From contig JAUSIT010000034.1 in NCBI GenBank assembly GCA_030647965.1, forward strand, positions 1 through 45,103: a stretch of DNA of 45,103 bases, in the 5' to 3' direction. The notes beneath the pieces were generated by a model. The model was not told the DNA's origin. It did not search any database and saw only the letters and a program-made list of their open reading frames with translations. Positions 4,565 through 44,892 of this stretch are shown here, piece after piece. Made by a program: the position numbers and the translations under genes. Position 1 is the stretch's first letter; each line of letters begins with the position of its first letter. The DNA comes from Nanobdellota archaeon. Lineage in GTDB: Archaea > Nanobdellota > Nanobdellia > Pacearchaeales > GW2011-AR1.

Positions 4565-4716
4565 TTTAATTAGTAATGAAAATCTTTTTGAAAAAATTAG
4601 TGATTAATTAATAGTTGGGAGGCGCAAAAAGTTTTACTCTTGTAATAAGTAATACCAAATAGAAGAGCAAAACTTTTTCTAGCCGACTTAGTATCATAAT
4701 GAAATGCAATTATCTA
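4565..4716 (+). repeat. Dispersed multi-hairpin repeat (family A), copy A1, containing 53-bp inverted-repeat insert
   Basis: GATTAATTAATAG..GGAGGCGC-[4626-4678 hairpin]-CTAGCCGACTTAGTATCATAATGAAATGCAATTAT. Confidence 0.75.
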
Positions 4717-13816: not shown

Positions 13817-14464
13817 TCAGCTAAAATCAACAGCATCTCTTACTTGCTCACTAGACATACCTAAACTAAATAAAAATGCCTTTAGCTCATTCTCGCTTCT
13901 TAACTGACTTTCATTTTCAGCAAAACTTGCTATTTTTATTTTGCACTCTGCTTTTCTGCATACTTTTATATTTTGCATGATTTTTGCCAAAAGCAAGGAT
14001 TTTTCTTTTCCTTCTAACTTCAGAATATCTGAAAAATTAATTACAATTGAAATATTTTTTTCTCTTGCTTCTTTTGCAACAACATGATTTAATCCAGAAT
14101 CTCTTTGCTTAACGCCATCTCTAAAATGCCCTCTTTCAGGAGAAACCAGATAATCGATTTTGCATGTTTCAATTATTCTTCTGTTAAAATCATCATCTTT
14201 TCCCAAAATAGCAATCTTTTTCTTGCTCAAACTGGATGTAATCCTTTGGGTCGTTCCCAGTTTGAGGCTTGAAAAATCCCCGTTAACTTGAGTTTGGGAT
14301 TTTTCATTATGTCCTTTTAAAAATTCAATAATCTTTCTAATTTCTTTTTCATCAGAATCAATCAAATATCCATCAAAATCTTCTTTTAGCTCATTTTTTG
14401 ATTTTACTTTCTGAAAAATTAATATTCCTTTTTCTTTCTTAAGCGGTTGTAAAATTATGTCCAT
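13817..14464 (-). CDS. RNase P protein p30 (Rpp30/RNP3), with in-frame palindromic insert
   Basis: IETCKIDYLVSPERGHFRDGVKQRDSGLNHVVAKEAREKNISIVINFSDIL; insert SQTQVNGDFSSLKLGTTQRITSSL. Confidence 0.88.
   Translation of the reverse strand: MDIILQPLKKEKGILIFQKVKSKNELKEDFDGYLIDSDEKEIRKIIEFLKGHNEKSQTQVNGDFSSLKLGTTQRITSSLSKKKIAILGKDDDFNRRIIETCKIDYLVSPERGHFRDGVKQRDSGLNHVVAKEAREKNISIVINFSDILKLEGKEKSLLLAKIMQNIKVCRKAECKIKIASFAENESQLRSENELKAFLFSLGMSSEQVRDAVDFS
14226..14305 (-). repeat. In-frame two-hairpin palindromic element within rpp30
   Basis: Minus strand GAAAAATCCC-AAACTCAAGTTAACG-GGGATTTTTC, AAGC, CTCAAACTGG..CCAGTTTGAG. Confidence 0.8.
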
Positions 14465-15223: not shown

Positions 15224-15410
15224 ATGCAACTATGTTAAGATGATTTGTTCTAAAGAACAAGAATAAATGGAATCTTCTAGCGAAGATTATGATTAATTAA
15301 CTAATCCATAGGAGACGCAAAAAGTTTTACTCTTGCAATAAGTAACGCAAGATAAAAGAGTAAAACTTTTTCTAGGTGACTTAATATCTTAACGAAGTGC
15401 AATAATTAGT
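15224..15410 (+). repeat. Family A multi-hairpin repeat, copy A2, with 53-bp insert at 15319-15371
   Basis: TTGTTC/GAACAA; GGAATCTTC-TAGC-GAAGATT; GGAGACGC-[insert]-CTAGGTGACTTAATATCTTAACGAAGTGCAATAATTAG. Confidence 0.85.
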
Positions 15411-23534: not shown

Positions 23535-24110
23535 TTATTTACTTAAATCATTTAATTGTTGATTATTTAATAATGTTTCTTTGCATAATTTAATTGCTTG
23601 ATTAACTGCTTCTTCTGGAGTTTTTGCAGAAATAACTTTTCTTCTTTTTCTGTTATCAAAATATTGATTTGCTAATTTATCACTCCACCCACCACTTCCT
23701 TCTATTGCAACCATAGGGATATTTGACTGATAAGCGATTGCTAATTCTGTTAGTGTTCCAGATCCTCCACTTATTGAAATTATTGCATCACAACTATTTA
23801 CTAAAACAAATTCTCTGCCACCCCCTCTTTCTAATCCTGTAACAATTAATATATCTGTATTTTCTTTATCATAAATATTATTCCCCTTCCCATAAGTCAC
23901 GCCAACAGTTAATCCATTAAATTTCTTAGCTCCTCTTGCAGCAGCAGTAGATAAACTATCATAATCTTTTTCTGCACCATAAACAGTAATATTGCCAGAT
24001 TTTGCAATTAACTCTCCAATTTGCTCTGCAATATTTTCTATTTCTTTGCTATAATTTAAATCTGCAGCACTTCCCATAACGCCAATTTGAAATTTTTTAG
24101 TCATTTTCAT
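23535..24110 (-). CDS. TIGR00725-type LOG/Rossmann family protein
   Basis: IGVMGSAADLNYS..., LVNSCDAIISISGGSGTLTELAIAYQSNIPMVAIEG. Confidence 0.8.
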   Translation of the reverse strand: MKMTKKFQIGVMGSAADLNYSKEIENIAEQIGELIAKSGNITVYGAEKDYDSLSTAAARGAKKFNGLTVGVTYGKGNNIYDKENTDILIVTGLERGGGREFVLVNSCDAIISISGGSGTLTELAIAYQSNIPMVAIEGSGGWSDKLANQYFDNRKRRKVISAKTPEEAVNQAIKLCKETLLNNQQLNDLSK

Positions 24111-24387
24111 TAAAAGAAAGTATTACCTTTTTTTCAAAATTTAGTTTAGATAATAAACATCCTTTTTCCTTGCATTTATCTTTTAATTCTGTTTTATATA
24201 AATTAATGCTTAAATCAAGATATTCTCTTGCACTTCCGCCCCTAATCTGAGCTTCATATTCGGCCAGTTCTAATTTTAATTTATAAAATCTATAAGAACA
24301 AAATCTGCATGATTTTCTCTGTTCTTCTAACATTTCTTCAGGAATAAAATTATAAATACCCTCAACAAAAGGTTTATCAAATTTCAT
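24097..24387 (-). CDS. Hypothetical Cys-containing protein (trimmed start; true start may lie a little upstream)
   Basis: MKFDKPFVEGIYNF..CRFCSYRFYKLKLE..; the upstream part of the 244-aa ORF runs through tRNA-His and its repeats. Confidence 0.55.
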   Translation of the reverse strand: MKFDKPFVEGIYNFIPEEMLEEQRKSCRFCSYRFYKLKLELAEYEAQIRGGSAREYLDLSINLYKTELKDKCKEKGCLLSKLNFEKKVILSFNEND

Positions 24388-24519
24388 ATTAAACTCCAAT
24401 AGAAATTTAATTGATAATTCATAAAAATTTGAGGGCTGATGAAAACAATCACAGCTTTGTTCAGCTACATTGTTATTCTCCACTAAATTCAATATAGGAA
24501 AATTCTCTCCTTTGTTAAA

Positions 24520-24684
24520 GGCGGTAGGAGGCTCAGAAAATTTAGAATTTTCTGGGACTTCAAAATTCACATTTTGGAATACTTCCCAAACATTATAAAG
24601 GGCGGTAGGAGGCTCAGAAAATTTAGAATTTTCTGGGACTTCAAAATTCACATTTTGAAGTGAATTCTTCCCTCCTTTGTTAAA
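24520..24684 (-). repeat. Two ~80-bp tandem units carrying duplicated tRNA-His 3' end plus paired hairpins
   Basis: GGCGGTAGGAG at 24520 and 24601 duplicates the end at 24685; hairpins CAGAAAAT/ATTTTCTG and CTTCAAAAT/ATTTTGAAG. Confidence 0.85.
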
Positions 24685-24756
24685 GGCGGTAGGAGGGAAT
24701 CGGACCCTCGTCAAGCGAGCCACAGTCGCCCATTCTACCATTGAACTACAACCGCC
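24685..24756 (-). tRNA. tRNA-His(GUG)
   Basis: G-1:C73; anticodon arm GGCGA CTGTGGC TCGCT; T arm GAGGGTCCGATTCCCTC. Confidence 0.9.
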
Positions 24757-25009
24757 ATTGTAAGGAACCAAGGTTCCTTGACATTCAACTTCCTTTGAAA
24801 TTGGGTCAAGCCTGATTCCATTGTTATTCAATTTTTTAATTGAAAATGGTATAAAAACATTATCCTTGCATACATTGAAATTATTAGAATTATAAGCGTT
24901 GCTAAAAAAGTCTTTCTTAATACAGACTATGGGGATACCCCCATTGTTTAGTTTCAGCTATCATAAAATTTAACAAGAATTAAACTATTTAAAATTATCT
25001 ATTTACAAA

Positions 25010-33912: not shown

Positions 33913-34300
33913 GCCATGATTCGAACCTTTCGAATCTTAGAATATAAATGAGGGGAAGAGCACACAACAATTTTCTTTGAAAATTCTTGGTGACTTCGGT
34001 TCTTGCGAATTGCAGTGCACACAACAATTTTTTCTCAAAAATTCTTGGTGGCTCCAATTCTTGCGAATTGAAGCATTCGAACCTTTCGAATCTTAGAATA
34101 TAAATGAGGGGAAGAGCTCATGACAATTTCTTCGAAATTCTCAGATCCTCCAATTCTTACGAATTGAAGTGATTCGAACCTTTCAAATCTTAGAATATAA
34201 ATGAGGGGAAGAGCACACAACAATTTTCTTTGAAAATTCTTGGTGACTCCAATTCTTACGAATTGAAGTGATTCGAACCTTTCAAATCTTAGAATATAAA
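33913..34300 (-). repeat. Tandem ~96-157 bp units carrying the tRNA-Leu 3' end plus hairpins
   Basis: CTCTTCCCCTCATTTATATTCTAAGATTYGAAAGGTTCGAAT repeated; GAGGGGAAGAG starts at 33950, 34107, 34203 and 34302 (tRNA). Confidence 0.88.
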
Positions 34301-34495
34301 TGAGGGGAAGAGGATTCGAACCCCTGTAAGCACTAAGCTACAGGATTTCTTATGTCTCCTCGAAAGGAGGTTGATTGTCACAAAAAATTTGCTTTTATAT
34401 TCTTTTCGTTCTATTCTAAAAGCGAATTTTTTGAAGGAACCTTGGTTCCTTACATAACTTAAGTCCTGCCCGTTTGGCCACTCCGGCACCCCCTC
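34301..34495 (-). tRNA. tRNA-Leu(UAA), type II, with ~110-nt structured intron
   Basis: GAGGGGG..(T)CCCCTC; CAGGA CTTAAG-[intron]-TCCTG; long variable arm; T arm AGGGGTTCGAATCCTCT. Confidence 0.87.
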
Positions 34496-36240: not shown

Positions 36241-36423
36241 AATTATTGTACTTCAAAAGATTTTGCTCTTCTATCTTGCGTACCCATTGCAAGAGCGAAA
36301 TCTTTTCGTTAAGATATTAAGTCGCCTATCGGCTCCTAACGATTTATTAACAAATAATAATTGTCGCCAGACAATTCCATTAATTTTTGCTAAAAGCAAA
36401 CTATCGCAACGCAGTTGCATACT
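36241..36423 (-). repeat. Family A repeat, copy A5, with insert 36255-36306 in a different position
   Basis: Minus strand GCAACTGCGTTGC..TTTGCTTTTAGCAAA..GGAATTGTC-TGGC-GACAATT..GGAGCCGATAGGCGACTTAATATCTTAACG-[insert]-GAAGTACAATAATTAG. Confidence 0.85.
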
Positions 36424-41646: not shown

Positions 41647-41833
41647 CATACAACTTTGTTGAGATAGTTTGTTCAAATGAACAAAAATTAATGGAATTTT
41701 CTAGCGAAAATTACTATTAATTAATAAATCGTCAGGAACCGCCAAAAAGTTTTGCTCTTACAATAAGTAACGACAATAGAAGAGCAAAACTTTTTCAGGT
41801 GACTTAGTATTTTAACGAAGTGCAATCATTAGA
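41647..41833 (+). repeat. Family A repeat, copy A7, with insert 41744-41795
   Basis: CATACAACTTTGTTGAGATAGTTTGTTCAAATGAACAAAAATTAATGGAATTTTC-TAGC-GAAAATTACTATTAATTAATAAATCGTCAGGAACCGCC-[insert]-CAGGTGACTTAGTATTTTAACGAAGTGCAAT. Confidence 0.88.
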
Positions 41834-41888
41834 GAATATATTCAATATAATCCCAAACATTTATTAAGAAAAATCCCATAAAAATTCT

Positions 41889-43670
41889 ATGAAAGAGGTT
41901 ATACTAAAATTAATTGAAAAAGAGCTTAAAGGCAAGTTAAAAAAAGAAGAAATTGAAAAATTAATTGAAATCCCCCCTTCTGATAAAATGGGAGATTATT
42001 CTTTCCCATGCTTTTCCTTAGCAAAAATAGAGAAAAAAAGTCCATTGCTTATTGCAGAAGAACTAAAAGAAAAAATACAACTTCCAATAGAAATTTCAAA
42101 TACAGATGCAAAAGCAGGCTATCTTAATTTTTTTGTAAATAAAAAAATGCTTGCTAAAAAAATACTTGAAAAAATTATAAAAGAAAATAAAAATTTTGGA
42201 AAAACAAATATTGGCAAAAATAAAACAATTGTAATTGATATGTCTTCCCCAAATATTGCAAAACCTTTTGGAATTGGGCATTTAAGATCAACAATAATAG
42301 GAAATTCAATTGCAAATATCTGTATGTATAATGGCTTTAAAGTAATCAAAATAAACTATCTCGGAGATTGGGGCACTCAATTTGGAAAGCTAATTGTAGG
42401 TTATAAAAAATTTGGAAATGCTTCACAATTAAAAAAAGATCCAATAAAACATCTTTATGAAGTTTATGTAAAAGCCAATAAAGAATCTCAATCACAGCAA
42501 GCTGAGAGAGATTCTTTAAGCCTCCAAATGGGAACGAACAAGAATAATCATAACAAGCTACAGAGTATTAAACCCATTTGTAGCAATAAAGAAGATTATG
42601 AGCAAGAAGCAAGAGACTGGTTTAAAAAATTGGAAAATGGAGATAAAGAAGCACTAAAATTCTGGAAAACCTTTAAAGAACTAAGCTTAAAAGAATTTGA
42701 AAAAATTTACAAATTACTAAACATTCAATTTAATGTTATTTCTGGTGAATCTTTTTACAATACTAAAATGGAAAATACAATTCAAGAACTAAAGAAAAAA
42801 AATCTTTTAATAGAAAGTCAAGGAGCTTTTGTTGTTGACTTAGAAAAATATAATTTAGGATACTGCTTAATTCAAAAAACAGATGGAGCAACACTCTATG
42901 CAACAAGAGATATTACTGCTGCAATAGACAGGCATAATAAATTCAAGTTTGAAAAAATGATTTATGAAGTAGGTTCAGAACAAAAACTTCATTTTAATCA
43001 GGTTTTCAAAGTTTTAGAGTTAATGGGATATAAATGGGCTGAAAATTTAATTCATGTAGAACATGGATTATATCTAGGAGAAGATAACAAAAAACTTGCA
43101 ACAAGAAAAGGAAAAACCATTTTTATGCAAGATATTTTAGATGAAACAATTCAGCTTGCTAAAAAAGAGCTTGAATCTAGATATAAACTTTCTAAAAAAG
43201 AATTAGAATCTCGAAGCTTAAGTATTGCAAGAGCAGCAATATTTTATGGGGATTTAAAAAATTATAGAGCAAATGATATGGTTTTTGATATTGAAAACTT
43301 TATTTCATTTAATGGAAATACAGGCCCTTATTTACAATACAGCTATGCAAGAGCAAATTCAATTTTAAAAAAAGTAAAAAAATCAACAGCCAAATACGAA
43401 CTATTTGACTTAAAAGAACAAGAAATAAAATTAATAAAAAAATTAAATGATTTTCCAGAAACTATTTTTAAAGCATATGAAAAACTTAGTCCTTCTGAAA
43501 TTTCAAATTATTCATATGAACTATCTCAGATATTCAATGAATTTTACCAAGAATGCCCTGTTATTGGCTCAATTGAACAAAATTTCAGATTAAAACTTGT
43601 TGAAGCATTTAGAGATGTAATGAAAAATTCTTTAAATTTGCTAGGAATTGATGCAATAGAAGAAATGTGA
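41889..43670 (+). CDS. argS: Arginyl-tRNA synthetase, with in-frame palindromic insert
   Basis: VIDMSSPNIAKPFGIGHLRSTIIGNSIANI, NYLGDWGTQFGKL; insert KESQSQQAERDSLSLQMGTNKNNHNKLQSIKPICSNK. Confidence 0.95.
   Translation: MKEVILKLIEKELKGKLKKEEIEKLIEIPPSDKMGDYSFPCFSLAKIEKKSPLLIAEELKEKIQLPIEISNTDAKAGYLNFFVNKKMLAKKILEKIIKENKNFGKTNIGKNKTIVIDMSSPNIAKPFGIGHLRSTIIGNSIANICMYNGFKVIKINYLGDWGTQFGKLIVGYKKFGNASQLKKDPIKHLYEVYVKANKESQSQQAERDSLSLQMGTNKNNHNKLQSIKPICSNKEDYEQEARDWFKKLENGDKEALKFWKTFKELSLKEFEKIYKLLNIQFNVISGESFYNTKMENTIQELKKKNLLIESQGAFVVDLEKYNLGYCLIQKTDGATLYATRDITAAIDRHNKFKFEKMIYEVGSEQKLHFNQVFKVLELMGYKWAENLIHVEHGLYLGEDNKKLATRKGKTIFMQDILDETIQLAKKELESRYKLSKKELESRSLSIARAAIFYGDLKNYRANDMVFDIENFISFNGNTGPYLQYSYARANSILKKVKKSTAKYELFDLKEQEIKLIKKLNDFPETIFKAYEKLSPSEISNYSYELSQIFNEFYQECPVIGSIEQNFRLKLVEAFRDVMKNSLNLLGIDAIEEM
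42480..42586 (+). repeat. In-frame two-hairpin palindromic element within argS
   Basis: AAAGAATCTC..GAGATTCTTT, AAGCCTC, CAAATGGG AACGAAC..CCCATTTG. Confidence 0.8.
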
Positions 43671-44744: not shown

Positions 44745-44892
44745 TAAGGTAATTCATCAATTGTTTTGTTCTCACAAAGATTAATGGAATTTTCTAGCGA
44801 CAAAAGATTTTACTCTTTCATATTGCATACTTATTGCAAGAGTGAAATCTTTTGAATTACGTTTAATTAATAAAAAGTTTAGGAGACGCTAG
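44745..44892 (+). repeat. Family A repeat, copy A8, interrupted within its TAGC hairpin by insert 44802-44853
   Basis: ATTAATGGAATTTTCTAGCGAC-[insert]-GAATTACGTTTAATTAATAAAAAGTTTAGGAGACGCTAG. Confidence 0.8.

Follow-up and report, generated by a model that had tools for sequence, protein, structure and literature searches.

A palindromic insert in rpp30

The gene for RNase P protein component 3 (rpp30) of a Nanobdellota archaeon carries two adjoining hairpins within its reading frame, and the locus raises the question of whether these are an ordinary part of the gene or a repeat that was inserted into it, as an earlier note had proposed. The gene lies in a window of 45,103 nucleotides (positions 1-45,103 of contig JAUSIT010000034.1) from a fragmented MAG that is 85% complete. 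The features of the locus are as follows:

13817-14464 (-), rpp30, RNase P protein component 3; 215 aa, with the insert at residues 53-80
14220-14308 (-), palindromic element in rpp30, both terminal 5-mers included (AATGA left, AAGAA right); 84-bp unit
14270-14306 (-), hairpin 1 of the rpp30 copy, TGAAAAATCCC / GGGATTTTTCA; 10-bp stem, with covariation
14226-14266 (-), hairpin 2 of the rpp30 copy, CTCAAACTGGG / TCCAGTTTGAG; 10-bp stem, with covariation

The product matches Pfam RNase_P_p30 (E 5e-17) and PDB 6k0a, a solved archaeal RNase P component 3 (E 1e-11). On the minus strand the element reads CAT AATGAAAAATCCC...GGGATTTTTCA AGC CTCAAACTGGG...TCCAGTTTGAG C AAGAA, the unit being measured from one AATAA-like 5-mer to the other. 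Both 10-bp stems are found where the earlier note had placed them, and the element is in frame as claimed, though the 24-26 residues attributed to the insert were too few: it spans 28 codons, N53-S80 (NEKSQTQVNGDFSSLKLGTTQRITSSLS), within the 215-aa ORF. SQTQVNGDFSSLK is an example of the predicted insert peptide within Rpp30.

Stems of this kind are far more frequent in the window than chance would give. With at least 3 G/C, loops of 8-40 and overlapping registers counted, the window holds 19 perfect 10-bp stems; Markov-1 random sequence holds 1.35 on average and no more than 5. Two adjoining perfect 10-bp stems occur in the window at the rpp30 site only, and were absent from 20 Markov-1 random windows. 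An Rfam search of the window returned tRNAs only, with no family at the rpp30 site.

The earlier note had suggested alignment with homologues as a check, since residues shared by close relatives would speak for a conserved part of Rpp30. Residues N53-S80 are absent from all 29 aligned homologues, drawn from the same family and order, and in the two nearest (G031 and G006) the flanks of the insert are joined directly. The AlphaFold model of the protein is confident overall (mean pLDDT 85, core blocks >90); in it the insert has a low pLDDT (about 50-62) and forms the loop between helix 39-61 and strand 83-87. An exposed, flexible loop is thus suggested by the model.

A second copy in argS

The related copy reported in the arginyl-tRNA synthetase gene is indeed present, on the opposite strand:

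41889-43670 (+), argS, arginyl-tRNA synthetase (TIGR00456, E 6e-147); 593 aa, with the insert at residues 197-232
42477-42589 (+), argS copy of the element, AATAA at both ends (AATAAAGAA repeated); 108-bp unit
42479-42518 (+), hairpin 1 of the argS copy
42522-42583 (+), hairpin 2 of the argS copy, CTCCAAATGGG / CCCATTTGTAG

Its identity to the consensus is 94%. Two mismatch-free occurrences of the AAGCCTCnAAnnGGGAACGA core are present in the window, where 0.07 would be expected even when up to 3 mismatches are allowed. The argS orthologues of E14 (G057) and G026, with identities of 63% and 61%, align to residues 1-201 and 235-593, the two pieces being adjacent in each, and the alignment has a single 35-residue gap at the insert in 4/4 orthologues. 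As judged from the alignment, these orthologues are precise empty sites at the residue level. The structural model, built on five sequences, is weak overall (69.8), with the insert largely below 50 and residues 211-234 at pLDDT <50, so that exposure of the insert is only hinted at.

Copies in the genome and conserved structure

Pattern, BLAST and covariance-model searches found 16 elements in the genome, 14 of them beyond the rpp30 and argS copies; the lack of any further copies, which the earlier note named as grounds for abandoning its proposal, is not what the genome shows. Ten are short, with 69-109 bp per unit, and six are long (161-183 bp), with an additional module of 75 bp in which two more hairpins form. 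This module was considered as an independent repeat and rejected, its clear matches being restricted to the six long copies. Five short copies lie inside genes. Besides rpp30 and argS these are:

On C31 of this genome, a protein of unknown function
On C6 of this genome, a sugar-nucleotidyltransferase-like protein (relative 3pnn)
On C20 of this genome, a GT2-TPR glycosyltransferase

All five are in the sense orientation, have lengths that are multiples of 3 and use one reading phase, which in typical copies gives N-[KE]-x-S-Q...S-N-K. The copy on C20 is among the two weakest motif matches and is a real in-gene copy; C18 (L012), a 3-mismatch motif match without hairpins, was dropped.

The paired structure is conserved. 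When 14 of this genome's copies are aligned, 94% of the 308 cells are paired, and both sides have changed in 10 of 22 pairs, a level reached by none of 500 shuffles. Fifteen copies from other genomes are likewise 94% paired, with 6 pairs changed on both sides, and their covariation score was also reached by 0/500 shuffles. The stems are, on these alignments, evidently kept through compensatory changes. Covariance model R1 finds the rpp30 element with E 2.5e-13. Model R2, built from the 15 other-genome copies and from none of this genome, recovers both window copies (argS, E 5e-18; rpp30, E 4e-11); the one remaining match in the window has E 0.15 and falls on the argS hairpin read on the reverse strand. 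The rpp30 copy is divergent and shortened.

Other repeats occur around these copies. A second palindromic mosaic family, intergenic, occupies window positions 4596-4713, 15224-15406, 36250-36404, 41648-41840 and 44760-44854, with the modules AAAAAGTTTTGCTCTT...AAGAGCAAAACTTTTT and ATTAATGGAATTTTCTAGCGAAA in varying combination. At 24512-24657 lie two copies that are 95% identical and start 81 bp apart; they contain the palindrome CAGAAAATTTAGAATTTTCTG and are situated a little past the 3' end of a tRNA gene at 24685-24755 (-); the ORF called over them, 24097-24831, is a translation of the tRNA gene. Four tandem repeats of about 99 bp, of two alternating types, lie at 33917-34369. Elsewhere in the genome, L061, L062 and L063 are mosaic palindromes whose inner hairpin, GTAGCAAGCTAC-GGAGTATT, also occurs in the loop of hairpin 2, a hint of a modular superfamily.

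Distribution across Nanoarchaeota

A fixed pattern of the element, run against 85,462 species genomes, matched 13 stretches, all in Nanoarchaeota MAGs: Pacearchaeota 36_23, Pacearchaeota NC_groundwater_179, Nanoarchaeota E14 and C20, and Woesearchaeota 53_31. Viral contigs, when searched, gave no match. Of 281 genomes sampled from the class, 21 gave R2 matches, and these belong to ten families. By the fixed-pattern scan, the repeat family is spread through Nanoarchaeota and found only there.

In-frame genic copies are also present in E14 (L144, L152 and L154), in the Nanoarchaeota C20 genome (L139 and L142) and in G026 (L120 and L124). Their hosts, named by eye, include a putative pilin-like protein whose insert immediately follows the start codon, a protein with a putative HisE-like part at its end and one with a putative N-terminal acylphosphatase-like part. 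These seven copies rest on ORF continuity, and orthologue empty sites refer to rpp30 and argS. In G026 the element also occurs as head-to-tail tandem copies sharing one AATAA, along with partial internal duplications (L116, L117, L118 and L121).

Reading frame and coding constraint

All 12 genic copies from the four genomes are in sense orientation, a multiple of 3 in length and open without a stop in phase 0, the other five frames being open in 0, 0, 1, 4 and 0 of them. Of 31 non-genic copies, 13 have an open phase 0; the other five frames are open in 2, 1, 6, 7 and 1. The in-gene multiple-of-3 rule is partly what survivorship alone would give. The length bias extends to non-genic short copies: multiples of 3 make up 16 of 21 in carrier genomes versus 10 of 27 elsewhere in the class (Fisher p 0.009; binomial p 7e-5 against an expectation of one-third), with both p-values optimistic because the copies share ancestry. 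Going by these sequences, intergenic copies in carrier lineages tend to be frame-compatible too, whereas those of more distant relatives do not.

The copies of G026 and the Nanoarchaeota C20 genome differ in the length of hairpin 1 or its loop, and their middle is therefore read in another frame, as FKPQTVNY or FKPPNG instead of SLSLQMGT. The shifted-frame units nevertheless remain open and a multiple of 3. Since both peptide readings are kept open, it is openness of the frame, rather than the peptide, that seems to matter. One scenario, which we hold tentatively and at somewhat less than even chances, is that a hairpin repeat present throughout the class was tamed in some lineages, where selection at the level of the element keeps a length of 3n and one stop-free frame, whatever the peptide, and so makes insertion into genes survivable.

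Element ends

The left end of the element is AATAA, and the right end is AATAA, AATCA or AATGA; copies with AATAA on either side are common. In three copies the two ends deviate in the same way (AATTAA in L104, GATAA in L106, AATGG in L146), which suggests a possible target duplication, whereas the AATAA/AATCA asymmetry between left and right, recurrent among copies, would suggest ends borne by the element and argue against duplication. Terminal inverted repeats are absent, the left AATAAARAATCCC and right GAGCAATAA not being mutually inverted. No transposase could be linked to the element family.

In the rpp30 copy (AATGA) and L146 (AATGG), the left flank differs from AATAA at positions that are paired; both copies (n=2) carry the matching complement in the inner arm of hairpin 1 and have a similar right flank. 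A guide-like hairpin 1, whose inner arm pairs with the target strand, was considered on the basis of rpp30 and L146, but two cases are too few for such a claim.

Nature of the element

The element repeats within and between genomes, conserves its paired structure, has clean empty sites in orthologues and obeys the rule on frame and length in all 12 genic copies. It is very probably a non-autonomous, multi-copy repeat of two tandem hairpins, about 70-115 bp long and bounded by AATAA-like 5-mers. Copies would insert at A+T-rich AATAA sites, between or within genes. In this lineage the element would be frame-compatible, having one stop-free sense frame and a unit length of 3n, and a copy landing in the open phase would therefore be read through as a peptide of 25-36 residues that the host protein presumably tolerates as an exposed loop or terminal tail. 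The element was likely mobile in the past, a factor supplied in trans acting on its hairpin DNA; the insert is probably translated, and its peptide may be near-neutral, in which case the element would behave as tolerated selfish DNA. The element is thus best read as a palindromic repeat of MITE-like character that is tolerated as an insert in surface loops and works like the Rickettsia palindromic elements (RPEs).

The identity of the factor in trans bears on a refinement of this reading, in which the element descends, as a non-autonomous derivative, from an IS200/IS605-type (Y1 HUH) transposon and is moved as single-stranded DNA by TnpA. Such an origin calls for two subterminal hairpins, no terminal inverted repeats and fixed short end sequences, and the element does have hairpins near both ends, lacks a terminal inverted repeat and often has AATCA on the right while the left stays AATAA, as if the ends were element-specific. 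Y1 genes are also common in the class, occurring in 20 of 52 relatives and 9 of 18 element-bearing genomes. However, the Y1 transposase (PF01797) was not found in the window's genome, G021 or G026, nor is there a Y1 gene in carriers that are 96-99% complete (for example G209, G251, G163, G168 and G180). None of 38 Y1 loci has ends matching the element models, the best being a weak match with E 0.21. A Y1 transposase is not supported as the mobilizer, and we consider this derivation unlikely.

Three further explanations were weighed. Some archaeal mRNAs are spliced, and an insert this highly structured might in theory be removed as an intron, for example through a bulge-helix-bulge site. Splicing requires neither a 3n length nor an open frame, yet 12/12 genic copies have both; intergenic copies of the same family exist, and no Rfam family is present at the rpp30 site, which makes an intron very improbable. 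Selection of the peptide as a useful module, spread for its function in proteins, would account for the likeness of translated copies across genera (the argS insert is 49-70% identical to E14 copies). It is extremely improbable given that the hosts are unrelated (rpp30, argS, a sugar-nucleotidyltransferase-like protein, a GT2 glycosyltransferase and a pilin-like protein), that the insert position ranges from the N-terminus to the C-terminal part, and that the frame shift in G026 and the C20 genome changes the peptide while length and openness are kept. Lastly, the divergent, shortened state of the rpp30 copy and the fragmented MAG would fit chance palindromes in an assembly artefact or in a loop that was extended in the ordinary way in this lineage. 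The chance of this is close to nil, as the independent model R2 finds the rpp30 copy, matching copies are spread over many contigs and recur in MAGs that were assembled independently, and adjoining 10-bp stems are not expected at random.

Relation to known palindromic repeats

In their title, Ogata et al. 2002 reportedly call protein-coding palindromes a unique but recurrent feature of Rickettsia. RPEs and the Wolbachia palindromic elements are palindromic, 100-150 bp long and inserted in frame at exposed positions of unrelated genes (PMC2229807, PMC3767692, PMC10969869). The Nanoarchaeota element shares with them its stem-loops, its intergenic and in-frame genic copies, its unrelated hosts and the lack of a known mobilizer. 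It differs in having two tandem hairpins rather than one long stem with terminal inverted repeats, in its AATAA-like bounding 5-mers and in its archaeal host. The resemblance to RPEs drawn by the earlier note holds for behavior: the insertions are stop-free and in frame in 12/12 genic copies, and the palindromic stem-loop repeat, with units of 69-109 bp (161-183 bp in the long form) beside the ~100-150 bp of RPEs, also lies between genes. It does not extend to membership of the RPE family, from which the element is set apart by its Nanoarchaeota hosts and by the pattern scan.

The earlier note knew of no archaeal description, which proved to be wrong. Palindromic repeats with coding potential, some of them in protein genes, were described in Methanocaldococcus jannaschii by Suyama et al. 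2005 (FEBS Lett 579:5281), according to PMC2229807 and PMC2996958. By those citations, the two share an archaeal host, palindromic structure, coding potential and a location inside protein genes; M. jannaschii belongs to a different phylum, and the fixed pattern of the present element matched Nanoarchaeota only.

Miniature elements derived from IS200/IS605 also have subterminal hairpins and no terminal inverted repeats, but here the host genome has no Y1 transposase and no autonomous element with these ends was found. REP/REPIN (GTAG-tagged) repeats are similarly palindromic and multi-copy, with mosaic and tandem arrangements, whereas the Nanoarchaeota element is longer, has two hairpins and is often in frame within genes, in a genome without a RAYT-type (Y1) gene. 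A literature search, to which most subscription journals were closed, found no description of such repeats in DPANN archaea. The Nanoarchaeota family is probably new, and its kind is already known from RPEs and the M. jannaschii repeats.

Implications

A further family of this kind in DPANN archaea suggests that several reduced-genome lineages have independently admitted selfish repeats to their core genes, which here include those for RNase P and a tRNA synthetase. The coding-compatible and non-coding branches of the family stand side by side, making element-level selection testable against survivorship. For annotation there is a warning as well, as extra loops of 25-36 residues in Pacearchaeota proteins may derive from repeats.
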